Source: Spirosoma aerolatum (GTDB lineage: Bacteria > Bacteroidota > Bacteroidia > Cytophagales > Spirosomataceae). Taken from it: a DNA stretch of 64,000 nt. Below are positions 2,922 through 55,521 of the stretch, in pieces (the first letter of the stretch is position 1; every line of letters starts with the position of its first letter). The notes under the pieces were generated by a model, which was not told the DNA's origin, searched no databases, and worked only from the letters and a program-made list of their open reading frames with translations. Location: assembly GCF_002056795.1 (NCBI RefSeq), contig NZ_CP020104.1:6333501-6397500 (forward strand), given 5' to 3'. The translations under genes and the position numbers were made by a program.

Positions 2922-3173
2922 TGCTACAAAAGTACAACGTCCTTGTCGAAGCTCAATTAAAATCGTACAGGGTAAAGAGTCATGCCACGTTTAGCGTGTT
3001 CACTACACTTCCTGATTTTGCGTAACAACTCATAAACTAATTTAGAGGATGAATGGATTCTAATTTGTTATTATTCGGCAAGTAATTCATCAAATTAGGC
3101 AGACAGCTACGCGTAGCCTATTTTCTTCTTTTTTGACTACCTGTTGCATGAACCTATAGGCTATTTTTGAATC

Positions 3174-3567: not shown

Positions 3568-5775
3568 ATGAAAAACCTCATTTGCTTTCTAGTCTCATTC
3601 CTTGTTTTTATTCATACAGCTGCTGGTCAGGATACCCTACGCGTCTCCGTCCGTCATTCACGGACCAATCGACCCATACCGGGTGCAACTGTAGTACTCA
3701 TCGGTACCTCCAATGGTACTAATACCGACCCCAACGGTATAGCTTTACTCCGCACGTCGGCAACAGGCCCTCAACCAATTCGAATTTCGGCCGTTGGTTT
3801 TCTGTCGATAACGCAATCGATCAATTTACCTCACACCGACACGCTCCGAATCGCACTTGAACCATCAGAAGAAGAGTTGGCGGAAATCACCGTTTCATCC
3901 ACCCGAACCGGGCGGAGCGTAGCCGACGAACCCACCCGCGTGGAGGTGGTGGACGCCGAAGAACTGGACGAAAAAGCCAATATGCAACCGGCCAACATTG
4001 CGGTTATTCTGCGCGAAAGTCCGGGGATTCAGGTGCAGCAAACGTCGGTGATGTCGGCCAATGCCACCTTTCGCATTCAGGGCCTGGATGGCCGCTACAC
4101 GCAGCTTTTACAGGATGGCTTACCGCTTTACAGTGGTTTTTCGAGTGGGCTGAGTCTGATGCAGGTCCCTCCGTTGAATCTGAAGCAGGTCGAAGCAATT
4201 AAAGGCTGCCAATCGACACTGTATGGGAGTGGAGCCATTGCAGGGCTGGTCAATCTGGTCACTAAGGAGCCCACCCGCAAACGCGACCTGGCGTTTCTAC
4301 TCAATGGCACGTCGGCGCTTGGGCTTGACCTGAATGGGTATTTCGCCCAGCGAAACGACAAAATAGGCTTCGCATTCTACGCGACCCGTAACCTGCAACG
4401 AGCTTACGACCCTAATCACGATCAGTTTTCGGATCTGCCTCAAATTGCCCGGACAACCCTGCAACCCAAATTGTTCTGGTATCCAACTGCAACGGTAACG
4501 GTCTCGGCCGGTCTTATCTGGTTCGACGAACAGCGAACAGGTGGCTATTTACCTACCATCCGAAACGAATCAGCAGGGTATACCGAAGCCAATGACTCGC
4601 GACGACTGGCCACTCAGTTTCGGCTGGAAAAGCGGTTTTCCAACGAAGCGGTGCTGACAGTCAAAAATAGCTATAGCCGTTTCAGGCGCGCCATCAACCT
4701 GCCCGACTATCAGCTCGGCGGTTTCCAGCAATCATCCTTTTCGGAAATCAGCTATTACAAACACCATCCAAAATCAGACTGGATCGCAGGCACGAATCTA
4801 TGGACCGATCAATTTCGCGACGAAAGCCCGGCCTATGCCCTCGGCCCTACTCCTATTTATGAACAAGCCATTGCCGGAGCCTTTGTGCAGAATACATTGA
4901 CAATTACCGAAAAGCTGAGCCTGGAAACCGGTTTGCGTACCGATCTGGTTATGACTACGGTTCGGGCAACTAATGAAGCAACGAAGCCACACCTGTTTTT
5001 ACTACCCCGGTTTTCGCTTCTGTATCGGGCTTCGGAACACTGGACAAGTCGAGTGGGGGGCGGTTTGGGCTACAAAGCACCCACTCTATTTACCGAAGAT
5101 GCCGAGCGATTATCCTTTCGGGGAGTCGATCTGCAATCGATCCGGCAAGACCAGACTGAATCGTCAATGGGCTTGAATTGGGATGTCAATTACCGAACCG
5201 AACTTTCTGAGGAAACAACCTTATCCGTCAATCAGTTGTTTTTCTACACGCAGCTGAACCGACTAACGGTGTTAACGCCTACGGGAACCCGTTACGCTTT
5301 TCGTACCGCCGATGGCCACCTGTCGACGCGAGGATTTGAGACGAATGTGCGGTTGGTTTATCATGACCTACATACGTTCCTGGGCTATTCATTCATTGAT
5401 ACCCGGCGTCGGTACGATCAACTGACAGGTCCGCTCCCGCTTACGGCCAAACATCGGCTTTACTTTACGACACTGTACGAAACCGAAAACCTTAAAACGG
5501 GTTTTGAAGCTTTCTACTCAGGGCCACAACAGCGATCAGATGGATCAAAATCGCCCGATTACTGGACTTTAGGGTATATGATCGAGAAAAAATGGACGTT
5601 CGGCCAAAACACAAAAGGCAGCATTTTTATTAACTTCGAAAACCTCCTTGATGTCCGGCAGTCCCGTTTTGAAGCACTGGTTACTGGCTCCATTACCCAG
5701 CCTGTTTTTGTCACCGACATTTATGCCCCTACTGACGGTCGGGTAATTAATGCGGGATTTAAACTAAATCTGTAA
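3568..5775 (+). CDS. TonB-dependent receptor of a metal-handling cluster
   Basis: An outer-membrane receptor of about 735 residues. I chose ATG 3568 because it begins a textbook signal peptide (KNLICFLVSFLVFIHTAAGQ); an ATG at 3541 would add nine residues. A carboxypeptidase-regulatory-like domain comes first (about 25-105), then a plug domain with GIQVQQTSVMSANATFRIQG, LLQDGLPLYSG and EAIKGCQSTLYGSGAIAGLV, then a 22-strand barrel ending in a short aromatic-poor tail (NAGFKLNL). It lies between a DUF6660 gene and a zinc-type CDF exporter, so the transported ligand is plausibly a metal or metal chelate. The substrate is inferred from context only. Confidence 0.9.
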   Translation: MKNLICFLVSFLVFIHTAAGQDTLRVSVRHSRTNRPIPGATVVLIGTSNGTNTDPNGIALLRTSATGPQPIRISAVGFLSITQSINLPHTDTLRIALEPSEEELAEITVSSTRTGRSVADEPTRVEVVDAEELDEKANMQPANIAVILRESPGIQVQQTSVMSANATFRIQGLDGRYTQLLQDGLPLYSGFSSGLSLMQVPPLNLKQVEAIKGCQSTLYGSGAIAGLVNLVTKEPTRKRDLAFLLNGTSALGLDLNGYFAQRNDKIGFAFYATRNLQRAYDPNHDQFSDLPQIARTTLQPKLFWYPTATVTVSAGLIWFDEQRTGGYLPTIRNESAGYTEANDSRRLATQFRLEKRFSNEAVLTVKNSYSRFRRAINLPDYQLGGFQQSSFSEISYYKHHPKSDWIAGTNLWTDQFRDESPAYALGPTPIYEQAIAGAFVQNTLTITEKLSLETGLRTDLVMTTVRATNEATKPHLFLLPRFSLLYRASEHWTSRVGGGLGYKAPTLFTEDAERLSFRGVDLQSIRQDQTESSMGLNWDVNYRTELSEETTLSVNQLFFYTQLNRLTVLTPTGTRYAFRTADGHLSTRGFETNVRLVYHDLHTFLGYSFIDTRRRYDQLTGPLPLTAKHRLYFTTLYETENLKTGFEAFYSGPQQRSDGSKSPDYWTLGYMIEKKWTFGQNTKGSIFINFENLLDVRQSRFEALVTGSITQPVFVTDIYAPTDGRVINAGFKLNL

Positions 5776-9487: not shown

Positions 9488-9556
9488 AATAGTCCGCAGA
9501 CTGTTATGATGAACCTGTTTAAACTTTTTAACTTTCAAAGTCAACCGAGTACTCGG

Positions 9557-9787: not shown

Positions 9788-9956
9788 CCCAAAATTCAGC
9801 TTTTTCTGCTTTCTAAACTAATTAACCATTTTCTTCCGGCAGGTACAATTACGTACCTATTGACGTTGACGCCAGATCACTTTTTTATGTAAACTGATGA
9901 ATTATAGGTAAGGCTTAAGCAATTCCAGGGCGTTTTTCACACTTATTAAAAACAGC

Positions 9957-38784: not shown

Positions 38785-39906
38785 TCACTTTGCCTGGCCG
38801 GCAACTACTTGTTCAAGAGTTTTGAGCACCTCCGGCATTTTCTCATGAGCATTGTTGCAGAGGACAATGATGGTTTTGTCGGCGTCGGTAAAACGGATGA
38901 TTTCCGTTTTGTAGCCAGGGTTATCGCCACTATGCTGTACTACCTTTCCCAGTTTATCATTCTGCGTCAGTTCCCAGCCAAATCCATACTGTGATAATGT
39001 GCCGTTAGTGAGTTTTGCGGGTTTAAAAGCCTCAGCAAGCGTTTGCTGACTCACCAGTTTGTTGGTATACAACGTCCGATCCCATTTGAGTAAATCCTCG
39101 GCCGTTGAACTGATACGACCCGGCCCTTTGCGATTGCCGAGCCAGATGGCATAATTAAATTCAGGAAACGAATCGGCCCGAACATACCGTTTCTTTTCGG
39201 GCACATACATGTGTCCCCAGGCCATTTCAGGCAGTTTAAGTTTCTCGTCACGCGTGCGAATAGCCGTATGCGTCATGCCTACGGCCTTGAAGATGCGCGT
39301 CCGACAAAACTGAATAAAATCCTGCCCCGATACTTTCTCGGCAATACTCGCCAGGAGCATGTAGCCCGTATTGCTGTATTCGTATTTCGCTCCCGGCTCA
39401 AACGACTTAGCTGGGTGGTATTTGATCAGATAGGCTATGTTATCAGCATTACCGGCCACTTTACGCTTATCCCAATGCTTATCCATCACATCCTGATAAT
39501 CGGGCAGTCCCGATGTGTGATTGAGCAGATGCCGAATGGTAATACCTTGATAGGGCAAACCCGGAATGTATTTGTCGATCAGGTCATCATAATCTAGTTT
39601 ACGTTCCTGCTTCAGCATCAGGATCGTCATGGCCGTAAACTGCTTTGAGACGGAAGCCAGTTCAAAAATCGCGCCCATCGTCATGGGCGACTTCGTCTCA
39701 AAATCCCGATAGCCGAAGGCTTTTTCATACACGGGTTTCCCTTTGTCGGCAACCAGCACAACGCCACTAAAATCAGGGATTTGGGCGAAGAAGTTGGTTA
39801 ATTCGTCGTTGATTTTGGCAGACGAACGCATTTGAGCGATGGCAGCGAAATTGGATAATAGGCTAGCCAGCAAGAAGGATACGAAATGGAACCGATGGAT
39901 CAACAA
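38785..39906 (-). CDS. Exported serine hydrolase (class C beta-lactamase type)
   Basis: A 373-residue secreted protein (signal to AIAQ, residue 25) of the beta-lactamase/transpeptidase-like class C fold. Motifs: Ser85-Val-Ser-Lys88 (ELASVSKQF), the Tyr motif YEYSNTGYMLL and HSGDNPGYKTEIIRF (the K/H-x-G motif). These are more often esterases, D-aminopeptidases or PBP-like hydrolases than true beta-lactamases. Nothing next to it indicates antibiotic resistance regulation. It is on the same strand as the Crp gene, 40 bases upstream of it. Confidence 0.88.
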   Translation of the reverse strand: MLIHRFHFVSFLLASLLSNFAAIAQMRSSAKINDELTNFFAQIPDFSGVVLVADKGKPVYEKAFGYRDFETKSPMTMGAIFELASVSKQFTAMTILMLKQERKLDYDDLIDKYIPGLPYQGITIRHLLNHTSGLPDYQDVMDKHWDKRKVAGNADNIAYLIKYHPAKSFEPGAKYEYSNTGYMLLASIAEKVSGQDFIQFCRTRIFKAVGMTHTAIRTRDEKLKLPEMAWGHMYVPEKKRYVRADSFPEFNYAIWLGNRKGPGRISSTAEDLLKWDRTLYTNKLVSQQTLAEAFKPAKLTNGTLSQYGFGWELTQNDKLGKVVQHSGDNPGYKTEIIRFTDADKTIIVLCNNAHEKMPEVLKTLEQVVAGQAK

Positions 39907-40002
39907 GAGGATTAAGCAGTTTCGGTTATTGCTTCCAATTTACGGAGTTGGGCCAAAATACGCAATTGTACAAGATGTCTTCGTCGCATATTTAAATAAA
40001 CA

Positions 40003-40198
40003 GCAAGGACGCGAGGGCGCAAAGAATATGGCACTCAATCTTCACTAGTTTAGTTATTCATTTTTTGTCATCCCGACGCAGGAGGGATTTCAAGGTTAAA
40101 GATATTTGAGATCCCTCCTGCGTCGGGATGACAAAAATGATCTGATGTCTTTCATTTAGCTAATTTTAACCATATTCTTTGCGTCTTCGCGTCCTTGC
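40003..40198. repeat. Nested double inverted repeat (REP-like doublet within outer arms)
   Basis: Outer arms 40003-40031 and 40170-40198 pair at 27 of 29 positions (GCAAGGACGCGAnGnCGCAA). Inner arms 40062-40088 and 40111-40137 pair perfectly (27/27; TTTTTGTCATCCCGACGCAG core) and continue into TCAA/TTGA. Each inner arm contains ATCCC...GGGAT, a mini-hairpin of its own. It lies 33 bases past the PHP-GDPD stop at 40232, and with flanks accounts for most of the 325-base gap 39907-40231. Confidence 0.95.
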
Positions 40199-40231
40199 GG
40201 TTTACTTGAAAGTCTTTTAAATCCCAAAAAC

Positions 40232-42169
40232 TCATTTAGCCTTACCTTTATTCAGAAAATCCCGCACCAGTTCCTGCTGATCGGTGCTTAGGAAATCAAC
40301 TCCCGCTTCACGCAGCCTAGCCCAGACCGCCGGATCTTCGGGACTGGCCCAAAGACGGAGTTTCTTTCCTTCCTGGTGCACTCGGTCAACCAATTGGCGA
40401 AGTTTCTGAAACTCAGTCGCTGGCATGTCGCCTTGTCCGCGCCAGCCAAGCTGATTGGGATACGAATCGCTAATGATCGGCATAACCGTTTTTGAAAAGC
40501 CTTTGCCCAAATCGGATGGTCGACCATCGAGCGTTATCAGATGATCTTTTGTCTTCGCCACCGCCGACATAGGTCGATTTCCCGACAAGACGATGGTAAC
40601 CGGCCCCGCCGGATTTTTACCACCTGAAGCGATTAATGAGCGATAGCGTTGAAGGAGTTTAGCGAGTGCCTGATACGTACTATCGGCTCCGGTTTTCGCG
40701 TCGATCATCAGGTAAAATGGGCCCTTATAGCCTGGAAACACCCGCCCGTTATGCTGACGGATTCGTTCTGCTAATGGTTTCAGATACAGATTTTCGAGGG
40801 TTGTCGCAGCGTTTTTAAACGATGGCCGATCATGCGTTACATACAAAGTATCATCGATCAAATGAACATCGGCTTCGACGCTGGTAAACCCATTTTCGAG
40901 CGCATCCCACAATGGCCGCGATTGTTCATAATCGTTGTGTGCGTGAGCGTTGAGCAACGGCGTAACACCCGCCGTTGATTGTGGAATCAGTTTCGACGCA
41001 ATGGGTTGCGTCCAGGCCGTTTCGACATCACCGGGCATAAAGGGATTATACTTTGGTTTGCTGGAAATGACCTTGGCCCGGAGCAGTACAAGATCATCCG
41101 TCAGCGCGTATGCTGCCGCCGAATCGGTCACTTCCTTAAGCAGTTCAGCTTGCTGGCTTCCTTTTCGGATGCCGAAAAACTGAATACGATAAGTTACGTC
41201 TTTCTCCGGGCTGACGCGTACAACCAGTGAACTGCCCACCTGAGGCAGTTGCTTCAACGTAACGCCCGAACTGGCGTAGAACCGTCCGGCTTCCATCGCT
41301 TCAACAATCGCTTTGGGGGTTAATTCTGGCGCATCGACCATTACCCAACCCCGACCTGAATTGCTGAACGATGGCCCAAAAAAGTAGTAATTGTGGCTAT
41401 CGTCGGTACCAAGCCCATACATCAGCGGACGGCCCTGCTGCACAAAATGGAGGTTGATTTTATCCCACATCGATTCGGTGCCTTCGTGGGTACTATCGCC
41501 ATAGTTATTCACCAGATGGTGCCCATTGAACACCTCAAAAAAACGCTCGTAGCGTAGCTGCATCAAATCTTCGGCCTTAATGGCGTAGTAAAAGTTCGGA
41601 TGGTTGATGTGTGGAAACATGGGCTGGCCCGTTTGCCGACGCTGGGCGACCACCATATCAATGTTATTCTGCATCACCTCGGCCACACTATTGCCGGGAA
41701 GCGGACGAACGAGGTTTTTCACGTTGGTAATATTCATGTGAATAGGCTTACCCTGGTACCCCGTCGATACTTCTTCGCTTTTGATAATCATGAACTTACC
41801 CGGCTCCTCGAAGTAATTTCGGTATTCGTCCAGCTTTTTCAGCCGCACCCGGAGCGAGTCGTTTCCTCCTTTCTTATACACGACCCAATCCGGCCCGAAC
41901 TGGCGCAGATAACGGTCGAACGTTCGACGTCGGTCCTGCTGATGCGGCACATTCACCCACTTCTCGACGTCCTGAATCACGTTATGGTCAGACAAACCAA
42001 CGAACTGATACCCATTGGCTTTGTACCAGTCCATAATCATCTCGGGATAATCATCGCCATCGCTCCACAACGAATGCGTGTGCAAATTGCCTTTGTACCA
42101 ATGCTGAGCCTGGGTAAGTGATGAAAGCAGAACAGCGCATAAGGTAATCCAATAGAAGCTCTTGTTCAT
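40232..42169 (-). CDS. Exported PHP-domain / GDPD-like fusion phosphoesterase
   Basis: A 645-residue secreted protein with two catalytic modules. Residues about 22-290 are a PHP domain: GNLHTHSLWSDGDDYPEM, VGLSDHNV, EEVSTGYQGKPIHMN and YGLGTDDSHNYYF supply the metal ligands. Residues about 395-640 resemble the glycerophosphodiester/PI-PLC-like phosphodiesterase barrel: LNAHAHNDYEQSRPLWDALE, GFTSVEADVHLIDDTLYVTH and FLSTDQQELV. The signal peptide (to TQAQ) puts both in the periplasm or outside. A likely role is degradation of phosphodiester polymers or lipids; no substrate can be named. The fusion is in one uninterrupted frame. Confidence 0.9.
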   Translation of the reverse strand: MNKSFYWITLCAVLLSSLTQAQHWYKGNLHTHSLWSDGDDYPEMIMDWYKANGYQFVGLSDHNVIQDVEKWVNVPHQQDRRRTFDRYLRQFGPDWVVYKKGGNDSLRVRLKKLDEYRNYFEEPGKFMIIKSEEVSTGYQGKPIHMNITNVKNLVRPLPGNSVAEVMQNNIDMVVAQRRQTGQPMFPHINHPNFYYAIKAEDLMQLRYERFFEVFNGHHLVNNYGDSTHEGTESMWDKINLHFVQQGRPLMYGLGTDDSHNYYFFGPSFSNSGRGWVMVDAPELTPKAIVEAMEAGRFYASSGVTLKQLPQVGSSLVVRVSPEKDVTYRIQFFGIRKGSQQAELLKEVTDSAAAYALTDDLVLLRAKVISSKPKYNPFMPGDVETAWTQPIASKLIPQSTAGVTPLLNAHAHNDYEQSRPLWDALENGFTSVEADVHLIDDTLYVTHDRPSFKNAATTLENLYLKPLAERIRQHNGRVFPGYKGPFYLMIDAKTGADSTYQALAKLLQRYRSLIASGGKNPAGPVTIVLSGNRPMSAVAKTKDHLITLDGRPSDLGKGFSKTVMPIISDSYPNQLGWRGQGDMPATEFQKLRQLVDRVHQEGKKLRLWASPEDPAVWARLREAGVDFLSTDQQELVRDFLNKGKAK

Positions 42170-42330
42170 ATCGACAACTCGAAAATGTCAGCGGTAAAGG
42201 TAGCTACAAGCAGATTGCCTGATGCTATGCGTATGTTATCTACCTGTTAAAGCTGTAAAGCGACTATCCCAACGAGCCTACCCAATCCCGATTTTTCAGT
42301 TTTTTGCTCTAAATTTCGGAACAATAGACG

Positions 42331-43191
42331 ATGCCTGACTTTCCAAAAAGTGTGATCCTTTTGGAACGTCTACAACTTGCCCAAACACTCATGGTGCGCA
42401 CTACTCAACCTGAACTCCGAACGGTCAACGTCACACGCTATGTTACGCCACTGCGTGAAGGCGGTTCGCTACCGGCCATTGTCGAAGCCGATGACAATTT
42501 TTTGTATGTGCTGAAGTTTCGCGGAGCGGGTCAGGGCACCAAAGCATTGATTGCCGAATTAGTGGCCGGTGAGATCGCACGATTACTGGGTTTTCGTGTG
42601 CCTGAAATCGTCTTTATCAATCTGGATGTGGCCTTTGGACGCAGCGAACCCGACGAAGAAATTCAGGATTTGCTACGTGCCAGTGAAGGGCTAAATCTGG
42701 GCCTTCATTATCTGTCGGGCGCCATTACCTTCGACCCGATCCTGAACGACCTATCGCCCCGGCTGGCTTCGCAGATTGTCTGGCTCGATGCATTCGTGAT
42801 GAATGTGGACCGGACGGCCCGTAATACGAACATGCTCATGTGGCATAAGGAGTTGTGGCTGATCGATCATGGGGCTTCACTCTACGTGCATCATACCGGC
42901 CCTACCTGGCCAGAGCAAAGCCGACGACCGTTTACCCAGATCAAAGACCACGTATTGCTGCCCCAGGCAACAGAACTGGATGCCGTAGATGCCGAATTCC
43001 GGCAGTTACTAACCCCAGACCATATCCAAGCCATTGTATCGCTCATACCCGACGACTGGTTGATGAACAATGGCTCAACGGACTTCCCCTCCGACCAGCG
43101 GCAGGTGTATGCCCGTTTTTTAGAGGACCGACTAGCCTCATCCGAACTATTTGTCAACGAAGCGAAGAATGCCAGAAATACACTTGTTTGA
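42331..43191 (+). CDS. HipA_2-type kinase-like protein
   Basis: A 286-residue cytoplasmic protein resembling HipA kinases without the N-terminal HipS-like part. Candidate kinase residues: Lys62 in YVLKFRGAGQ, Asp160 with Asn165 in MNVDRTARNTNMLMW (catalytic loop), and Asp179 in WLIDHGASLY (Mg-binding). It matches the HipA_2 family, which usually precedes a DUF3037 gene, as here (23-base overlap). HipA proteins phosphorylate tRNA synthetases as toxins, but a role for this form is not established. There is no HipB-like antitoxin in the pair. Confidence 0.83.
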   Translation: MPDFPKSVILLERLQLAQTLMVRTTQPELRTVNVTRYVTPLREGGSLPAIVEADDNFLYVLKFRGAGQGTKALIAELVAGEIARLLGFRVPEIVFINLDVAFGRSEPDEEIQDLLRASEGLNLGLHYLSGAITFDPILNDLSPRLASQIVWLDAFVMNVDRTARNTNMLMWHKELWLIDHGASLYVHHTGPTWPEQSRRPFTQIKDHVLLPQATELDAVDAEFRQLLTPDHIQAIVSLIPDDWLMNNGSTDFPSDQRQVYARFLEDRLASSELFVNEAKNARNTLV

Positions 43192-43552
43192 GTACGCCGT
43201 TATCCGGGTGGTGCCCTGCGTTGAGCGGCAAGAGTTTCTGAATGTCGGTGTTATTGTCTACTGCCGGGCTCAGGGCTTTTTACAGACGCGATTCGCGCTC
43301 AACGAAGCCCGTCTTAAAGCATTTTCTGCTAAACTGGACCTGGACGAACTAATCGGACGACTTGGGGCTTTTGAACGAATCTGCGCAGGAAAAGCGGACG
43401 GGGGGCCAATAGGAAAACTAGCCATTGCCGAACGGTTTCGCTGGCTGACGGCTACCCGCAGTACGGTTGTGCAAACTTCGCCCGTACATCCGGGCCTTTG
43501 TACCAACGCAGCCGAAACGCTGGACAACCTGTTCGAGCAACTGGTGCTATGA
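43169..43552 (+). CDS. DUF3037 family protein
   Basis: A 127-residue protein beginning MPEIHLFEYAVIRVVPCVER, the usual DUF3037 start, with EFLNVGVIVYCRAQGF and RTVVQTSP-like C-terminal RSTVVQTSPVHPGL. ATG 43169 is chosen over TTG 43151. It overlaps the HipA_2 gene by 23 bases, and the two families occur together in many bacteria, which points to a functional unit. The biochemical role is unknown; it may be a partner or antidote of the kinase (inference). Confidence 0.85.
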   Translation: MPEIHLFEYAVIRVVPCVERQEFLNVGVIVYCRAQGFLQTRFALNEARLKAFSAKLDLDELIGRLGAFERICAGKADGGPIGKLAIAERFRWLTATRSTVVQTSPVHPGLCTNAAETLDNLFEQLVL

Positions 43553-43561
43553 TTTCTTTTC

Positions 43562-43629
43562 GACAAGATTTACAGGGTTTTGCCGACATATTCACATAGT
43601 CGATCCCTATTCATCCTGTAAATCTTGTC
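43562..43629. repeat. Inverted repeat after DUF3037 gene
   Basis: GACAAGATTTACAGG (43562-43576) is perfectly complementary to 43615-43629. The right side carries a second CCTGTCGA unit that pairs with TCGACA at the left edge. It begins 9 bases after the stop. Confidence 0.75.
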
Positions 43630-43663
43630 AATCCTGTCGAAAAAACGAATTGGTGTAATCCCT

Positions 43664-44950
43664 ATGAAGCACTTTACCCTGATCCTTTTCCTCTGCCCAC
43701 TCCTCACGACGTTAGCACAGCCCCGAACAGATGCTTTTCTGACGAAGCTACTGGCAACGAACCCAAGTGCTGTTTTTAAGGAAGTGATGCGGCATCCCGA
43801 AACGTATCGACTGCAAATTATCTACACCCAGATTGATCGCGACAAAGCCAATAAGCCGTCGTTTAAACACTACTACTTCCGCGTCGACAGCACCGAATAC
43901 TTCAACCCCGCTTCGACCGTAAAACTGCCGCTAGCCCTCCTCTCGCTCGAAAAACTGAACCGACTCAGCATACCCGGTGTCACTAAATACACCGCCATGC
44001 AGTTCGACAGCGCCTATAGCAAACAAACGAAAGAGTGGATCGATACGACTTCGGAGAGCGGCTATCCATCCATTGCCCATTGCATTAAAAAGGCATTTCT
44101 GGTCAGTGAAAACGATCCCTACAGCCGTATGTATGAGTTTGTCGGGCAAAGCGAAATCAACCGATCACTGCACGCCAAAGGGTATCTGGACACGCGCATT
44201 ACCCACCGATTTGTCCGCATGACCGCCGACGAAAACCGCCACACCAACCCCATCCGGTTTATTCGGTCAGATGGCCGTTTAATCTATACCCAACCAGCAG
44301 CGTTTAATACCGACCCATTCGATTTTCGACGGGAAGCCCGGCTTGGCAAAGGCTATTATGTGCGCGATAGTCTGGTGCATGAGCCGTTCAACTTTACTGA
44401 GCGTAATAAATTCCCGCTGGAAGCTTTTCAACAAATTTTGCAGTCGGTACTGTTTCCCGAATCGGTTACTCCCAACCAACGATTTAACCTGACTAATGAC
44501 GACTATCGACTCGTTTATCAGTACCTGTCGCAGTATCCGGGCGAGACAAATTATCCGAAATACGACGCCAAACAATATTACGACAGCTACGTAAAATTCT
44601 TCTTCATGGACAGTCTCCATCATCAGATGCCAACCGATGTCCGGGTATTCAACAAGGTGGGTTGGGCCTATGGCTTCCTAACCGATGCATCCTACGTGGT
44701 AGATTTCAAAAACAAGGTCGAGTACATGCTGACAGCCACAATCTATGTTAACAGCGATGGCATTCTGAACGACGACAAGTACGAGTACGACACTGTTGGC
44801 AATCCGTTTCTGTATCAGTTGGGCCAAACGATCTATCAGTATGAACGAAGCCGAAAACGACTTTATAAACCTGATCTGAGCAAATTTCAAATCACTTACG
44901 AAAAACGAATCAACGACAACCGCCCAACCATAAAAAACGTTGACAATTAA
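43664..44950 (+). CDS. Exported class A beta-lactamase-like serine hydrolase
   Basis: A 428-residue secreted protein (signal to LAQ, residue 19). Active-site motifs of class A/PBP-like folds: Ser84-Thr-Val-Lys87 (NPASTVKLPLAL), VSENDPYSRMYEFVG (SEN in place of SDN) and FNKVGWAYGFLTDASYVVDF (KVG in place of KTG). The size is larger than classic class A enzymes (about 290) because of an inserted segment between the first two motifs and the third. Likely a beta-lactamase2-family hydrolase; substrate unknown. The earlier GTG/TTG frame would extend into a repeat, so ATG 43664 is used. Confidence 0.83.
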   Translation: MKHFTLILFLCPLLTTLAQPRTDAFLTKLLATNPSAVFKEVMRHPETYRLQIIYTQIDRDKANKPSFKHYYFRVDSTEYFNPASTVKLPLALLSLEKLNRLSIPGVTKYTAMQFDSAYSKQTKEWIDTTSESGYPSIAHCIKKAFLVSENDPYSRMYEFVGQSEINRSLHAKGYLDTRITHRFVRMTADENRHTNPIRFIRSDGRLIYTQPAAFNTDPFDFRREARLGKGYYVRDSLVHEPFNFTERNKFPLEAFQQILQSVLFPESVTPNQRFNLTNDDYRLVYQYLSQYPGETNYPKYDAKQYYDSYVKFFFMDSLHHQMPTDVRVFNKVGWAYGFLTDASYVVDFKNKVEYMLTATIYVNSDGILNDDKYEYDTVGNPFLYQLGQTIYQYERSRKRLYKPDLSKFQITYEKRINDNRPTIKNVDN

Positions 44951-44992
44951 ATCGTTACCGACCAAGCCCGTTTACACTTAACCTTTAACCTT

Positions 44993-46312
44993 ATGCATCT
45001 TCAATCTACTTTTCGCACACTAGCGCTGATCGTCCTGACAGCGCTGTCTGTGCAGGCCCAAACTGCCACCAGGCAAAATTCTCCGCAATTAACGACATCG
45101 ACTCCCGAATCGGCTGGTTTCTCATCAGAACGGCTCAACCGGCTCGACGGGCTCCTTCAGTCGTACATCGACAAAGGAGCTTTTCCGGGCGCATCGGCCA
45201 TTGTGGTTCGGGATGGCAAAATTGTGTATTACAAAGCCTTCGGCAAATCGGACCTCGACGACAATAAGCCGTTAGCCAAAGACGCCATTTACCGAATTGC
45301 GTCGATGACCAAAGCCATCACGTCGCTGGCTGTTATGATGCTGCACGAAGAGGGAAAAATCATGCTCGACGACCCCATCAGCAAATATATCCCTGAATTT
45401 GCCAAACCCGTTGTGCTCGACAAATTCAACGAGAAAGATAGTACCTACACTACCGTACCAGCCAAGCGGGAAATTACTGTCCGGCATTTACTGTCGCATA
45501 TGTCGGGAATCAACTACAACGTCATTGCCAGCGATCCCCGCATGCGGGCTATTTATACCAAAGCGGGCGGTATTCCCGATGCGTTTGTGACCCAGAATTA
45601 CACCCTCGGACAAATGGTGAAGCAACTGGCTAAACAACCCCTCAATCACCAGCCCGGTGAAAAATGGACCTACGGCCTGAGTATTGATGTGCTTGGTTAT
45701 CTGGTCGAAGTCGTGTCGGGGCAAAGTCTGGCGCAGTTTTTTGAAAAGCGTATCTTCGAGCCACTGGGCATGAAAGACACTTTCTTCTACCTACCCGATG
45801 CCAAGAAAGACCGACTGGTGAAACTGTATTCGGAAGACAAAGACAAAAAGCTGGTCAAAACCTCCAGTATAAAAACCCTCCCCGTTGATCCCGATTACCC
45901 AATTATGGGTGCCAAAACCTACTATTCGGGTGGTGGCGGCTTATCTAGTACGGCCTATGATTATGCCATTTTTCTGCAAATGCTGCTGAACAATGGCGTT
46001 TACAACGGGAAGCGATTCCTCAGTCGCAAAAGCATCGACCTGTTTACGCAGAGCGACCAGACCGGCACGCTGTTTCCAGAACCCGGCAACTATTTCAGTC
46101 TGGGCTTCCGGGTCGTCGGCGAAAAAGGTCATAACAACGACCTGAACAGCATTGGTACCTACGCCTGGGGCGGTGCGTTCAGCACACACTACATTGCTGA
46201 TCCGAAAGAGAAAATTGCCATCGTCCTGATGAAACAGATGTGGGGCACTACTTACGGCGGTGAACTCGACAGAAAGTTTGATGTGCTGGTGTATCAGGCG
46301 CTGGATGATTAG
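44993..46312 (+). CDS. Exported serine hydrolase (class C beta-lactamase type)
   Basis: A 439-residue secreted protein (signal to QAQ, residue 23). Ser104-Met-Thr-Lys107 (IASMTKAITS) is the nucleophile motif; WTYGLSIDVLGYLVEVVSG holds the Tyr motif (Y-G-L instead of Y-x-N); the Gly-rich ending includes WGGAFSTHYIADP. This matches the EstB/PBP-like esterase group of Bacteroidota. It follows the class A-like gene by 42 bases on the same strand and could be co-transcribed, giving a pair of unlike serine hydrolases. Confidence 0.9.
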   Translation: MHLQSTFRTLALIVLTALSVQAQTATRQNSPQLTTSTPESAGFSSERLNRLDGLLQSYIDKGAFPGASAIVVRDGKIVYYKAFGKSDLDDNKPLAKDAIYRIASMTKAITSLAVMMLHEEGKIMLDDPISKYIPEFAKPVVLDKFNEKDSTYTTVPAKREITVRHLLSHMSGINYNVIASDPRMRAIYTKAGGIPDAFVTQNYTLGQMVKQLAKQPLNHQPGEKWTYGLSIDVLGYLVEVVSGQSLAQFFEKRIFEPLGMKDTFFYLPDAKKDRLVKLYSEDKDKKLVKTSSIKTLPVDPDYPIMGAKTYYSGGGGLSSTAYDYAIFLQMLLNNGVYNGKRFLSRKSIDLFTQSDQTGTLFPEPGNYFSLGFRVVGEKGHNNDLNSIGTYAWGGAFSTHYIADPKEKIAIVLMKQMWGTTYGGELDRKFDVLVYQALDD

Positions 46313-46386
46313 TCTTTGCCAATGCATTTCTGGAAATACTAACTAATACGTATGAGTATGGCCCCGATGGAGTCACACGTTTCCGT

Positions 46387-46412
46387 GAAGTCAGATTTAA
46401 GAATCTGACTTC
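46387..46412. repeat. Hairpin GAAGTCAGATT
   Basis: Perfect 11-bp stem with a 4-base loop (TAAG). It is the first of two hairpins in the 325-base gap 46313-46637, where no gene is seen. Self-contained unit, not followed by a T-tract. Confidence 0.8.
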
Positions 46413-46415
46413 GTG

Positions 46416-46462
46416 CGGTTTCTCAAAACCGAATGAGTACAGGGTTCGGTTTTGAGAAACCG
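46416..46462. repeat. Inverted doublet of CGGTTTCTCAAAACCGAA
   Basis: Arms 46416-46433 and 46445-46462 are perfect 18-base complements with an 11-base loop. Each arm is itself a hairpin (CGGTTT-CTCA-AAACCG), so the element is two inverted self-palindromic units, like the doublets at 40062, 47883 and 49922. Confidence 0.85.
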
Positions 46463-46637
46463 TCCAGGGAAGGTTTGAGCACCCTCCTACACAAAGACGG
46501 CTATTGCAAGGCATGTACTTTTTGCACCACTTCCACAAAGTCCTGAAAACACTTTCTGGCAAGAATCGCTTTCTACAATCAGACAGAATCGTATACGTTA
46601 CTAATTCAGCCTGGTTGAGTTCGAAAGCATTCAATAC

Positions 46638-47873
46638 ATGAAAAAAATAGCCTTTATTGTTCAACGGTATGGATTGGAAGTGAATGGGGGAGCCGAATAT
46701 TATTGCCGGATATTGGCCGAACGGTTAGCTGGCACTTATGAAGTGGATGTACTAACCAGTTGCGCACTGGACTACATTACCTGGGCTAACTGGTATCCGC
46801 CCGAAATGACCCCAATTAATGGGGTTAAAGTCCATCGATTTGCCACCGAATACGAACGACAGGAAAAGGCTTGTGGCCGAGCTGAGCATAAAATCAAGAA
46901 ATGGTCACGGCCCGAAGAATGGCAGGGATTCGGCTGGATTCGGATGTGGGGCCGGGCGCTTGTTGGTAAAACCGTTCGGCGGTATAGCTGGTTATGGGCC
47001 AAAGCGCAGGGACCTTACGCACCCGATTTGATCACTTATCTACAACGCAACCACCACCAATACGACGCGCTGATCTTCATTACGTACCTGTATTATCCAA
47101 CCATTGTCGGTTTGAATGTTGCCCCGCACAAGTCGATTTTCATTCCGACTGCCCACGACGAAACGCCCATTTACCTACCTATTTTCCGGCCAGTATTCCA
47201 TAAACCCCGGGCCATTTTATTCCTCACGGAAGGCGAAAAACGCTTTGTTCATCAGTTCTTTAAAAACGAAGCCATTTACAATGATGTGATCGGCGTCGGT
47301 ATCGAAACCTTAAAAATACCGCCAGCCGAAACAGCTGCTACGATCCTAAAAACCGATGCGCCATACCTGATTTATATTGGGCGGATTGCCGAAGCCAAGG
47401 GGTGCGATATGCTGTTCGCGTATTTTATTCAGTACAAACAGGCTCACCCATCGTCTTTAAAACTCGTGCTGGTCGGTCAGGCGTTCATGACCATTCCTGA
47501 GCATCCAGACATTATTACGGCCGGTTTTGTGGACGAAGAGGTGAAAGTTGCCTTGCTGAAAGGAGCCAAAGCCCTAGTGATTCCCTCGCAATATGAAAGC
47601 CTCTCCATGGTAACGCTGGAAAGCTTTGCGTATGGCATACCCGTAATCGCCAATGAAAAATGTGAGATTCTGAAAGATCATATCGAACTCAGCCAGGGAG
47701 GTCTTTTATACGCCGAATACGACCGTTTTGAACAAGCCGTTCAACAGCTTTCTACCAGCGACTCAGGCGAAATGGGTGAAAAAGCGCAGGCATACATCGA
47801 GCAAAATTACACCTGGGACAAGGTACTGAGCCGTTTCGATAAAGCGGTGAATTATGTAACTGATTGGAAATGA
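46638..47873 (+). CDS. GT4-family glycosyltransferase
   Basis: A 411-residue cytoplasmic glycosyltransferase. GT-B fold features: N-domain KKIAFIVQRYGLEVNGGAEY and SIFIPTAHDETPIYLPIF; C-domain PYLIYIGRIAEAKGCDMLFA and VIPSQYESLSMVTLESFAYG, the nucleotide-sugar site (E-x7-E). Long N-terminal variant of the rhamnosyl/mannosyl type. It is convergent with an MsbA-like exporter; together with the two GT4 genes downstream it suggests assembly of a surface glycan or glycolipid. Confidence 0.9.
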   Translation: MKKIAFIVQRYGLEVNGGAEYYCRILAERLAGTYEVDVLTSCALDYITWANWYPPEMTPINGVKVHRFATEYERQEKACGRAEHKIKKWSRPEEWQGFGWIRMWGRALVGKTVRRYSWLWAKAQGPYAPDLITYLQRNHHQYDALIFITYLYYPTIVGLNVAPHKSIFIPTAHDETPIYLPIFRPVFHKPRAILFLTEGEKRFVHQFFKNEAIYNDVIGVGIETLKIPPAETAATILKTDAPYLIYIGRIAEAKGCDMLFAYFIQYKQAHPSSLKLVLVGQAFMTIPEHPDIITAGFVDEEVKVALLKGAKALVIPSQYESLSMVTLESFAYGIPVIANEKCEILKDHIELSQGGLLYAEYDRFEQAVQQLSTSDSGEMGEKAQAYIEQNYTWDKVLSRFDKAVNYVTDWK

Positions 47874-47882
47874 TAAACGCTA

Positions 47883-47967
47883 TTTTCTGTCATTCCGACG
47901 AAGGAGGAATCTCAAAGTTGCTTATTAGTCAAGCTTGAGATTCCTCCTTCGTCGGAATGACAGAAAA
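47883..47967. repeat. Perfect 33-bp inverted repeat filling a convergent gap
   Basis: Arms 47883-47915 and 47935-47967 are exact complements (33/33; TCATTCCGACGAAGGAGGAA core). The left arm starts 9 bases after the GT stop, and the right arm ends 4 bases before the convergent ABC gene's stop. Each arm has ATTCC...GGAAT as an internal mini-hairpin. Confidence 0.97.
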
Positions 47968-47971
47968 ATAG

Positions 47972-49810
47972 TTACTGAACCAGCTCCTGCATCATATTCA
48001 GTCGTTTATACACGCTGTCCTGGCTACTGATGAGTTCGTAATGATTGCCCCGCTCGATGATTTTCCCCCCTTCCATAATCAGGATTTCGTCGGCTTCTTT
48101 AATGGTACTGAGCCGGTGGGCAATCACCAGCGTTGTGCGACCTTCCATCAGGTTGTTCAATGCCTCCTGCACCGATTTCTCGGATTCAATATCCAATGCC
48201 GATGTAGCTTCGTCCAGAATCAGAATCAAAGGTTTTTTGAATACGGCGCGGGCAATACTTAACCGTTGCCGCTGGCCACCACTTAGCCGAAGGCCTCTGT
48301 CGCCAATGACGGTGTTGTAGCCATCTTCCGTGTCCATGATAAACGTATGGGCATTGGCAATTTTGGCCGCTTCGATCACCTCATCCAGACTGGCATCCGG
48401 TCGCCCGAGGGCAATGTTGTTGAAAATCGTGTCGTGAAACAGGATGATCTCCTGCGTGACAAAGCTCATCTGTTGCCGAAGCGACTCCATGGTATAATCC
48501 CGAACATCAACGCCATCAATTTTTACACTCCCCCGCGTTACTTCATAAAACCGGGGAAGCAGGTCGGCAATGGTCGATTTCCCAACCCCCGAAGGCCCGA
48601 CCAGCGCTATTTTCTGCCCCTTGGCAATTCGGAAATTGATGTTTTTCAACACGGGTTTGTCGCCGTATTGAAAACTTACATCGTCAAAAACAATGTCTCG
48701 CCGGAAGCTTTTCAGTTCCTGCGCCGTTGGTTTATCCTGTATTTCTATGGGCTTATCTAGCAGCTCAATGATGCGTTCGCCCGCAGCCTGCCCCTGTTGA
48801 ATGTTCGTCAGAGCCACCACAATCGCCTTAGCGGGACGAATTACCTGCGAGAAAATAGCGATGAACGCAATGAACGAACTGGCCTGTAAATTGCTCTGGC
48901 TACTCAACACCAGACTACCGCCATACACCAGAATACAGGCGACGACAAATACCCCCGATGCCTCAGAAAACGCCGGAGCCAGCTCGCGACGTTTAAACCC
49001 CTCCAGACTTGCCTGCCGATAAAAGTCATTCTCCTGACTAAAGCGTTTGAGTACGAAACCCGTTGCGTTGAACGACCGGATAATCCGCATACCGAGTAGG
49101 GTCTCATCCATCAGGGTCAGCATCCGCCCCATCGATGACTGTACATCCTGCGCTTCTTTTTTGAGCTTCTTGGTCACAGCCGCGATACCAACCGCCGAAA
49201 TCGGAATAATGACCAGCGTAAACAGAGTGAGTTTTACTGAAATCGCAAACAACGCCACGAAATAGCCAATCAGCAGGTATGGTTCCTTAAATACCACTTC
49301 GATAGAACTACCAGCTACACTTTCGATGGCGTAAACGTCGCCGTTCAGCCGGGAAAGCAGATCGCCTTTGTGCTCTTTGGTAAAATAGCCCAGGTGTAGC
49401 GAATTGATCTTTTCGAACAAAGCCTCCCGCAACCGCTTGACAAGCAGCGTTCGGGCGTTTAGCAAACAACGCTGGGCCAGAAACCGAAACAGATTGGTCA
49501 GCACAACCGACACCACAATCATTCCCGCCAGAAAATAAAGCGCGTGTATAGGATTGGTCGTTTTGAACTGATAAATGAAATGGTAAAACGTATCTTTAAA
49601 ATACGCTGGCGACAGTTGAAACTCAGGAGCTGAAGCAAACCGGGCGGCCTCGGCCGTGTTGATCGGATCGAACAGAAAATTGAGCAACGGAATGATCAGC
49701 GCAAACTGAAATACGTTGAAAAACACCCCGATGAGGGTAAATACAAAAAAAGGGATAACAAATTTTCCATAAGGCCGGGCGTATGCCATCAGCCGCCTAT
49801 AAATCTTCAT
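47972..49810 (-). CDS. MsbA-like ABC exporter (fused membrane and ATPase domains)
   Basis: A 612-residue half-transporter that forms a homodimer or heterodimer. Six membrane helices lie in residues about 15-320; the ATPase has Walker A VGPSGVGKSTIADLLPRF, signature RLSGGQRQRLSIARAVF and Walker B LILDEATSALD with an intact catalytic Glu, then VIAHRLSTI. The family exports lipid-linked glycans, lipid A or drugs. Its neighbours are glycosyltransferases, so lipid or glycan flipping is more likely than drug export. Confidence 0.93.
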   Translation of the reverse strand: MKIYRRLMAYARPYGKFVIPFFVFTLIGVFFNVFQFALIIPLLNFLFDPINTAEAARFASAPEFQLSPAYFKDTFYHFIYQFKTTNPIHALYFLAGMIVVSVVLTNLFRFLAQRCLLNARTLLVKRLREALFEKINSLHLGYFTKEHKGDLLSRLNGDVYAIESVAGSSIEVVFKEPYLLIGYFVALFAISVKLTLFTLVIIPISAVGIAAVTKKLKKEAQDVQSSMGRMLTLMDETLLGMRIIRSFNATGFVLKRFSQENDFYRQASLEGFKRRELAPAFSEASGVFVVACILVYGGSLVLSSQSNLQASSFIAFIAIFSQVIRPAKAIVVALTNIQQGQAAGERIIELLDKPIEIQDKPTAQELKSFRRDIVFDDVSFQYGDKPVLKNINFRIAKGQKIALVGPSGVGKSTIADLLPRFYEVTRGSVKIDGVDVRDYTMESLRQQMSFVTQEIILFHDTIFNNIALGRPDASLDEVIEAAKIANAHTFIMDTEDGYNTVIGDRGLRLSGGQRQRLSIARAVFKKPLILILDEATSALDIESEKSVQEALNNLMEGRTTLVIAHRLSTIKEADEILIMEGGKIIERGNHYELISSQDSVYKRLNMMQELVQ

Positions 49811-49837
49811 TCGGTGCGCTTAATTCTTTTCTTCATG

Positions 49838-50064
49838 AACCGCAAGAGCGCGAAGGCGCAAGATGACCCTGTTTAATATTGAGGCTGTTTAAACTTTTAC
49901 AAATTGAGCCCCAATAGGTGCGTTTTTGTCATGCTGAGGAACGAAGCATCTTGAGGTCTTCAGTTCACAGGCAAGCTTAAAGATGCTTCGTTCCTCAGCA
50001 TGACAAAAACCATTCGTTTGAACAAACTTGATTTAAAATTGTGTCCTCGCGTTTTTGCGGTTTT
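49838..50064. repeat. Nested inverted repeat with a perfect 31-bp inner doublet
   Basis: Inner arms 49922-49952 and 49980-50010 are exact complements (31/31; GTCATGCTGAGGAACGAAGC core), each containing ATGCT...AGCAT as a mini-hairpin. Outer arms AACCGCAAGAGCGCGAAGG (from 49838) and its partner near 50041-50062 pair partially (about 20 of 25) and belong to the same outer family as at 40003. It lies between the GT stop at 50078 and the ABC start at 49810. Confidence 0.9.
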
Positions 50065-55406: not shown

Positions 55407-55521
55407 AGCACAGATTTTTATGATTACTATGATTAACTATGATCTCCTCCTCAAAACAAGCTGATTATCAAGACACCTGTTTTATATCATAATAAATCAT
55501 ATCGATCATAAAAGTCTGTGT
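55407..55521. repeat. Long imperfect inverted repeat (CACAGATTTTTATGATT family)
   Basis: The left part from 55407 and the right part to 55521 pair over about 38 bases with about 29 matches (CACAGAnTTTTATGATn, nested ATGATT units). The centre has AAAACA/TGTTTT. The same core occurs at 26250. It lies between divergent MarR and VOC genes, unlike most repeats here, and may hold their promoters. Confidence 0.6.

Follow-up and report, generated by a model that had tools for sequence, protein, structure and literature searches.

Palindromic TGTC repeats of Spirosoma aerolatum form inverted doublets, part of which lie within IS5-type miniature elements

In Spirosoma aerolatum, a window of 64,000 bases (positions 6333501-6397500 of contig NZ_CP020104.1; the genome, G000, comprises 7,959,595 bases in one contig) contains three inverted doublets of a short palindromic unit that resembles repetitive extragenic palindromic (REP) sequences. 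Direct reading found the two 22-base units of each doublet to be identical at all three loci (Table 1). The general layout of the unit is TGTC-ATnnn-GA-S-loop-S'-GA-n'n'n'AT-CT, and it would fold as an unpaired tag followed by a 5-bp stem, a GA/GA step, one or two further pairs and a loop of the GNA or GNNA type.

The unit is common in this genome and occurs well beyond it. The pattern GTCATNNNGASN{3,12}NNNATCT has 84+89 matches (173) in the 7.96 Mb of G000 as opposed to 1+5 (6) for the reversed pattern, while a stricter pattern has 75+79 matches and its reversed control 0+0, so the presence of the unit in G000 is not due to chance. The stricter pattern has matches in 40 of 59 genomes searched as relatives (reversed control in 4/59), including 34 of the 36 genomes of the same genus when G000 is counted, several of which hold one to three matches only. 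It also has matches in 127 of 296 genomes of a phylum sample, many of them with one or few units (reversed control in 9/296). Given the number of genomes in which the reversed control has matches, those with a single match may represent chance. G004 has 236+244 units by the stricter pattern. A scan with Rfam gave 10 matches, all to microRNA models and under the gathering scores, which were taken as chance matches to a long hairpin. The 85-base doublet had no match in a plasmid collection at an E value of 1e-5, and a literature search with the letters of the unit returned, among the matches listed, only ones that looked unrelated.

Pairing within the unit was assessed by pattern counts and pair statistics in 199 units from fetched DNA, which were anchored solely on GTCATnnnGA and ATCT and in which each arm counted as one unit. 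The variable triplet is Watson-Crick throughout in 183 of these units (mean 47 and maximum 66 over 1000 shuffles). Among the 67 distinct units the triplet is entirely Watson-Crick in 51 (shuffled mean 9.4, maximum 20), and the closing pair is Watson-Crick in 57 (shuffled mean 37, maximum 50). This closing pair, in which GA-C-nnn-G-GA alternates with GA-G-nnn-C-GA, is a further covarying pair that was not part of the original description; the first and last bases of the loop are C-G in 139 and G-C in 48 of the 199 units. The second (3') GA is kept in 191 of 199 units, five-base loops have the form S-GNA-S in 155 of 160 cases, and six-base loops contain GNNA in 32 of 38. GNA loops closed by a C-G pair, as in the GCGAAGC mini-hairpin, are unusually stable in single-stranded DNA, and tandem GA is able to form sheared pairs; the GA/GA step of the unit may consist of sheared G-A pairs. 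Entire doublets folded as single-stranded DNA are far more stable than their shuffles (z -11.5 to -16.3). For single units the folding programme returned only the 5-bp stem with weak energies, and since these energies are uninformative, the case for the mini-hairpins rests on covariation. The first-pass annotation had described the three loci as two inverted copies of one unit whose flanks pair as ATCCC/GGGAT, ATTCC/GGAAT and ATGCT/AGCAT, which agrees with direct reading of the coordinates and the units. Its view that the changes are structure-preserving covariation in REP-like inverted doublets is upheld by the copy counts with their reversed controls, by the pair statistics and by the likeness of the two arms (below). 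It had proposed to look for the unit elsewhere in the genome with a covariance model, and the pattern search described above found it there.

A second kind of covariation, which is easily confounded with the first but which this system separates from it, links the two arms of a doublet. Among 89 doublets from stretches that were not fetched by means of their terminal inverted repeats (TIRs), 72 could be parsed and 17 could not, and the arms are identical in 59 of the 72 (mean 6.5, maximum 15 when arms were re-paired within groups). Stem and loop types are mixed among loci, yet they are mostly equal inside one doublet. A comparison of G000 with a relative, G027, covered 34 long orthologous hairpins of any family that had been selected for pairing in G000, most of which are not TGTC units. 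In these, pairing is retained at 32 arm pairs in which both bases have changed, as opposed to 2.6 expected for independent changes; at 5 further pairs both bases have changed and do not pair, and at 81 only one base has changed. The 32 compensated pairs fall in 13 of the 34 hairpins. One of the three TGTC hairpins in this set, locus 11141 of stretch L147, shows five compensated changes without any single one; its stem went from ATCCC to ATGCT and its loop from CGCAG to CGAAG, a switch that could reflect replacement of the whole doublet. The other two have single changes only (4 and 5). In another doublet of S. aerolatum in L147, each arm contains a 17-base GC-rich palindrome in its loop, an arrangement compatible with copying from one arm to the other.

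These data raise the possibility that covariation and arm identity are mainly mutational, with template switching making and mending palindromes in the absence of selection on structure. The excess of complementary double changes over non-complementary ones speaks for such a process, as does symmetry of the flanks past the element at -6 to -10, which was reached by 4 of 2000 permutations (49 doublets). Template switching from arm to arm does not itself yield pairing inside one arm, the GA/GA step or the GNA loop, however, and empty sites with target duplications show that insertion occurs. Moreover, only one of the three TGTC hairpins has compensated changes, and we consider a mainly mutational origin very unlikely.

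Some of the doublets are enclosed by ends of the type found in miniature inverted-repeat transposable elements (MITEs). A TIR pattern with ends of the GAAGCTG..CTTC type has 46 matches in G000 (control 1), which form nine pairs 160-170 bases apart, and all seven of the shells that were examined in G000 contain the unit. Twenty elements of relatives, chosen from paired TIR matches and hence not a random sample, are 126-171 bases long and have an exact 3-bp target duplication in 15 cases. Their cores comprise 12 TGTC units, 6 hairpins of the CGCAAAG type (all in G013), 1 derivative of the TGTC unit and 1 hairpin of the CCCCTAAA type. Scanning 84,980 named species genomes, among which S. aerolatum itself may be missing, for TIR plus TGTC returned 47 stretches, 47/47 of them from Spirosoma. 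Both ends are present in 31 of these stretches (116-191 bases), 20 of which have a 3-bp duplication in a set that overlaps the twenty elements above, and the right end is missing at the threshold used in the other 16. No target duplication of 4 bp or more was seen in the 20 or the 31 elements, and complete shells are mostly 158-171 bp in length.

An element of 929 bp that has the same ends is present in G034 and G020; this insertion sequence (IS) is the candidate autonomous partner of the shells. Its products of 281 and 291 amino acids are IS5-type transposases, for which PF13340 and PF01609 score above their cut-offs and NF033580 (109.2 and 105.8 bits) falls just under its cut-off of 110. The G020 copy is surrounded by a 3-bp duplication, ATA, and the G034 copy by none. 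Of the 36 genomes of the genus, 8 contain relatives of the transposase at E<=1e-40, several of which are pieces or have stops. The ends shared with the 929-bp element and the 3-bp target duplications suggest that its transposase can carry the MITEs.

Within the window, locus 3 is an IS5-type shell whose right end, aligned by eye, is decayed. ATT at 49878-49880 and 50031-50033, on the outer sides of this MITE, is a possible 3-bp target duplication. IS5-type ends were looked for at locus 2 and none was seen. When a flank common to all doublets was sought, the IS5-type end stood out, and the weaker words TACAGTGTA and AATACATTA were found in 4 of 86 each. These words, together with AGTTTAGAGTAT, occur at G000 1283303, 1692994, 2120244, 2235117 and 2549983 and may mark a second kind of shell.

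Synteny of G000 with G027 (87-96% identity in longer blocks) and with G020 provides examples of gain, loss and decay. At window position 55486, where G000 is empty, G027 has an insertion of 166 bases with GAAGCTG..CTTC ends, a central TGTC doublet and a flanking 3-bp repeat, ATC. Locus 1 is nested in an inverted repeat that is distinct from the IS5-type ends, and its orthologue in G020 has this outer repeat without the doublet. The site of locus 2 is occupied in G020 by a related doublet whose internal pairing is broken in both arms (3/5 pairs), in G027 by another hairpin and in G009 by another palindrome, and seven other relatives that were compared have none. Locus 12206 of L147 has no recognised end in G000, and the orthologous site in G027 is, by eye, a collapsed MITE remnant, suggesting that some naked doublets may be eroded MITEs. 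At locus 378 of L147, G000 has a MITE with a TGTC core and G027 has similar ends around a core that is a palindrome of the type associated with REP-associated tyrosine transposases (RAYTs), again by eye. Losses in G027 include doublet 6506992, of which a remnant is left, and doublet 10156 of L147, across which there is an apparent deletion. Conservation of hairpin sites with swapped families is not claimed here; the mapped hairpins of G000 are mostly similar or absent in G027 and fewer are different, and the comparison had no proper control.

Two further observations concern the surroundings of the doublets. The region from window position 9946 to about 39758-42415 is inverted in G027 relative to the DNA that follows, with one break near a lone IS5-type end at 9511 and the other near locus 1. 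Stacked fragments of unit ends (TTTTTGTCATCCC repeated) lie beside doublets at positions 3000-3100, 5280-5440 and 8330-8400 of L147 (by eye), which gives the impression that newer doublets inserted into older ones.

Spread of the doublets by RAYT transposases, as the first-pass annotation had proposed, is not supported by the genes that were examined. Its observation that the window has no RAYT gene was correct, in that neither Y1_Tnp nor the RAYT model has a match there. The RAYT model has 158 matches in 33 of 35 genomes at E<=0.001, and 20 of the 35 have matches over the cut-off. The sample examined for a flanking unit, as that annotation had also suggested, consisted of 50 stretches (30 with 1.5 kb per side as a rule and 20 with about 1 kb) that represent 49 genes, since L124 and L127 are the same place; this is about one third of the 158 matches, and some are weak and of the IS200 type. 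The unit adjoins 0 of these 49 RAYT- or IS200-type genes in a screen that called for at least 4 of 5 stem pairs plus the closing pair and that misses more degenerate units. Units in L107 and L112 lie about 1.2 and 0.9 kb from a RAYT-type gene, and none is within 1.5 kb of the five Y1_Tnp loci of G000. It is conceivable that a RAYT or another HUH transposase recognises the mini-hairpin and moves the doublets in trans, as for GTAG REPs. Such action would be compatible with the lack of adjacency, and it fits the tag and covarying stem of the unit, the frequency of RAYT-type genes in these genomes and the lack of IS5-type ends on most doublets. Against it stand the lack of the unit beside any gene in the sample and the poor match between units and transposases, in that G004 with its 480 units has only two weak RAYT matches (28.2 and 26.8 bits), and G003 (45 units) and G299 (36 units) have no match to the model. 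Several RAYT-type genes in these genomes are, moreover, flanked by other palindromes, and we regard movement in trans by these enzymes as unlikely. One such gene, broken, is that of L035 (G000:C1:5894230), which has inverted doublets of a different palindrome, GTAACGCGGGTGGRAACCCGCGC, on both sides. Other RAYT-type genes of this genus and of other Bacteroidota (L098-L100, L110, L122, L126) are flanked by palindromes of their own, for example of the GTGTCGGTTTCTTAAAACCGACACC and CCTAACAGGTTT types.

Crude calls of open reading frames (ORFs) placed 88 of the 89 doublets, of which 57 are in tandem gaps, 26 in convergent gaps, 1 in a divergent gap, 2 inside an ORF and 2 at an edge. The background of gaps longer than 100 bases, which includes the gaps with doublets, is 102 tandem, 18 convergent and 30 divergent. 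The median distance from a doublet to the nearest 3' end is 38 bases by the same calls. Divergent promoter regions are strongly avoided, so the hairpin, once transcribed, may have a role at the ends of genes, and the family could be mainly functional, with hairpins retained for protection of mRNA or as transcription boundaries. The short distance to 3' ends, the presence at some orthologous sites of a hairpin of another family and the compensation between arms are consistent with an RNA-level job of this sort. Several orthologous sites lack a long hairpin, though, and avoidance of promoters is explicable by purifying selection alone. In tandem gaps, too, doublets have no strong preference for the 3' end. 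The stem is followed by A rather than U on either strand, so the doublet is not a standard intrinsic terminator. Taken together, we think it quite improbable that the family is maintained mainly for such a function.

The explanation that we favour, and hold to be reasonably probable, is that the TGTC elements are palindromic repeats in the form of inverted homodimers that behave like the CGTC REPs and are probably their kin, do not belong to a RAYT system and are in part carried by IS5-type MITEs. Copies that form the cores of MITEs sharing their ends with the 929-bp element could be carried by its transposase. Some naked doublets would be old MITEs whose ends have decayed, and other naked doublets presumably moved or arose by a route outside this account. 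Template switching between arms at replication, or replacement of the whole doublet, may keep the arms alike.

Several observations weigh against this explanation. Full pairing is lacking in 16 of the 67 distinct units, some of which are evidently chance matches, and the covariation comes from 8 types of fully paired triplet that share a common descent. The energy model does not single out the mini-hairpins (z -0.07 to -1.15). An exact 3-bp duplication was found in 3 of the seven shells examined in G000, and no relative of the IS5 transposase at E<=1e-40 was found in G000 or in G027, the carrier of the MITE insertion. Only 22 of the 89 doublets have a recognisable IS5-type end in at least one flank (score 12 or more; 4-10% in shuffled sequence), 9 of 51 in G000, and 13 of 89 have such ends on both sides at a lower score (about 1% in shuffled sequence). 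The spread of most doublets therefore remains outside what IS5-type ends account for. As MITEs with a TGTC core were seen in Spirosoma only and TGTC units occur phylum-wide, the IS5 route cannot explain the whole family. Finally, only 33 of the 57 doublets in tandem gaps lie nearer the 3' end.

A tentative extension, which we consider possible at best, is that the IS5-type shell serves as an open hairpin cassette in Spirosoma, in which unrelated palindromes (TGTC doublets, RAYT-type REPs, CGCAAAG-type repeats and the CCCCTAAA hairpin) enter the loops of existing hairpins, or take one another's place there, and are then spread by the shell. If this is true, the cassette would be a vehicle for orphan CGTC-type REPs, and hairpin loops would be a landing site shared by several families.

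Other palindromes are frequent in this DNA. The window and the sequence following it up to G000 6537500 (204 kb) contain 45 long hairpins (at least 15 pairs), as opposed to none in one single-base shuffle, and in addition to the TGTC units they include several other families, AAAGAGCGAAAGAGTGAATGAG among them. A GC-rich palindrome of 17 bases, close to CCGGNCCGCCGGNGCGG in sequence, has 18 copies in the 1.46 Mb of DNA that was fetched (2 for the reversed control) and looks like a very small mobile element. About eight of these copies sit within loops of other palindromes, among them TGTC units and a palindrome that flanks a RAYT-type gene.

Table 1. Positions of the doublets, associated repeats and other features. 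Coordinates are those of the window unless a stretch is named.
Feature	Position	Strand	Basis or remark
Locus 1, left unit	40067..40088	+	tag GTC, stem ATCCC/GGGAT, GA-C-GCA-G-GA; read in sequence
Locus 1, right unit	40111..40132	-	same letters as left unit
Locus 1, entire inverted doublet	40062..40137	.	T5/A5 ends; sequence, hairpin scan, folding
Locus 1, left arm of outer inverted repeat (GCAAGGACGCG type)	40001..40031	+	sequence, synteny
Locus 1, right arm of outer inverted repeat (GCAAGGACGCG type)	40170..40200	-	sequence, synteny
Locus 2, left unit	47889..47910	+	stem ATTCC/GGAAT, GA-C-GAA-G-GA
Locus 2, right unit	47940..47961	-	same letters as left unit
Locus 2, entire doublet	47883..47967	.	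between two convergent ORFs
Locus 3, left unit	49928..49949	+	stem ATGCT/AGCAT, GA-G-GAA-C-GA
Locus 3, right unit	49983..50004	-	same letters as left unit
Locus 3, entire doublet	49922..50010	.	sequence, hairpin scan, folding
Locus 3 MITE, left TIR	49881..49897	+	IS5-type end match
Locus 3 MITE, decayed right TIR	50015..50030	-	alignment by eye
Locus 3, left arm of degenerate outer repeat (GCAAGGACGCG type)	49840..49864	+	by eye
Locus 3, right arm of degenerate outer repeat (GCAAGGACGCG type)	50040..50060	-	by eye
Empty site in G000	55475..55498	.	occupied in G027
17-base palindrome, CCGGNCCGCCGGNGCGG type	L147 16973, 17032, 19460; L162 14013; L194 1444; L238 1568; L138 946, 1529		

Among known systems, the GTAG REPs, REPtrons and REPINs that are associated with RAYTs resemble the TGTC elements in being small intergenic palindromes with an unpaired tag that occur as inverted pairs. 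The TGTC units differ in having no GTAG tag and no adjacent RAYT in the 49 genes examined. The bacterial interspersed mosaic elements (BIMEs) of E. coli have as hallmarks the Y and Z types of REP and binding of IHF, gyrase and Pol I. Evolution of hairpins by template switching, as reported in PMC8794818 and PMC8604942, likewise involves homogenised arms of inverted repeats, whereas Spirosoma doublets also pair inside each arm and show mobility. The subset with IS5-type ends is classed among IS5-type MITEs, with a foreign hairpin as its core. For this subset of copies, and not for all, the analysis found TIRs in common with a candidate autonomous element, a duplication of fixed length (3 bp), a size of mostly 158-171 bp and a partner transposase. 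The difference from IS5-family MITEs lies in the core, which is no remnant of an IS and instead consists of a hairpin whose family varies (TGTC doublet, CGCAAAG-type or CCCCTAAA-type).

The tag, which is TGTC and not GTAG, points to the CGTC superfamily of REPs. According to Di Nocera, De Gregorio and Rocco (2013, PMC3733652), these are defined by an unpaired tag CGTC, or TGTC/CCTC, by complementary AT residues at the start of the stem, a stem of 8-9 bp, a loop of 4-5 bases and a 3-base tail that is mostly CCA. The same authors describe TGTC variants, a predominance of opposed dimers and occurrence in Bacteroidetes among other phyla, with no flanking tyrosine transposase and only a few fortuitous associations with other transposase genes; the dimers of one species sit inside longer palindromes. 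The Spirosoma elements share the TGTC tag, opposed dimers, the lack of an adjacent RAYT and occurrence in Bacteroidetes, and their stem begins with AT, though the search patterns mostly require AT. Their stem of 5 Watson-Crick pairs, GA/GA and 1-2 pairs amounts to 8-9 only if G-A is counted, and the loop is mostly 3-4 bases. They differ from that definition in the near-invariant GA/GA that interrupts the stem, in the GNA/GNNA loop, in a 3' tail that is mostly CTC/CTT rather than CCA (a feature of most CGTC REPs and not strictly defining) and in that part of the copies lie in IS5-type MITEs with target duplications. Compared by description and not letter by letter, the TGTC family is likely a divergent relative of the CGTC REPs. 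No account joining CGTC-type REPs with IS5-type MITEs was found in the open-access literature, among the matches listed. In Spirosoma, a subset of such repeats is linked to a named transposase family by the ends they have in common with a candidate autonomous element, by their target duplications and by an empty site, and with this link the question of how CGTC-type REPs spread becomes testable.

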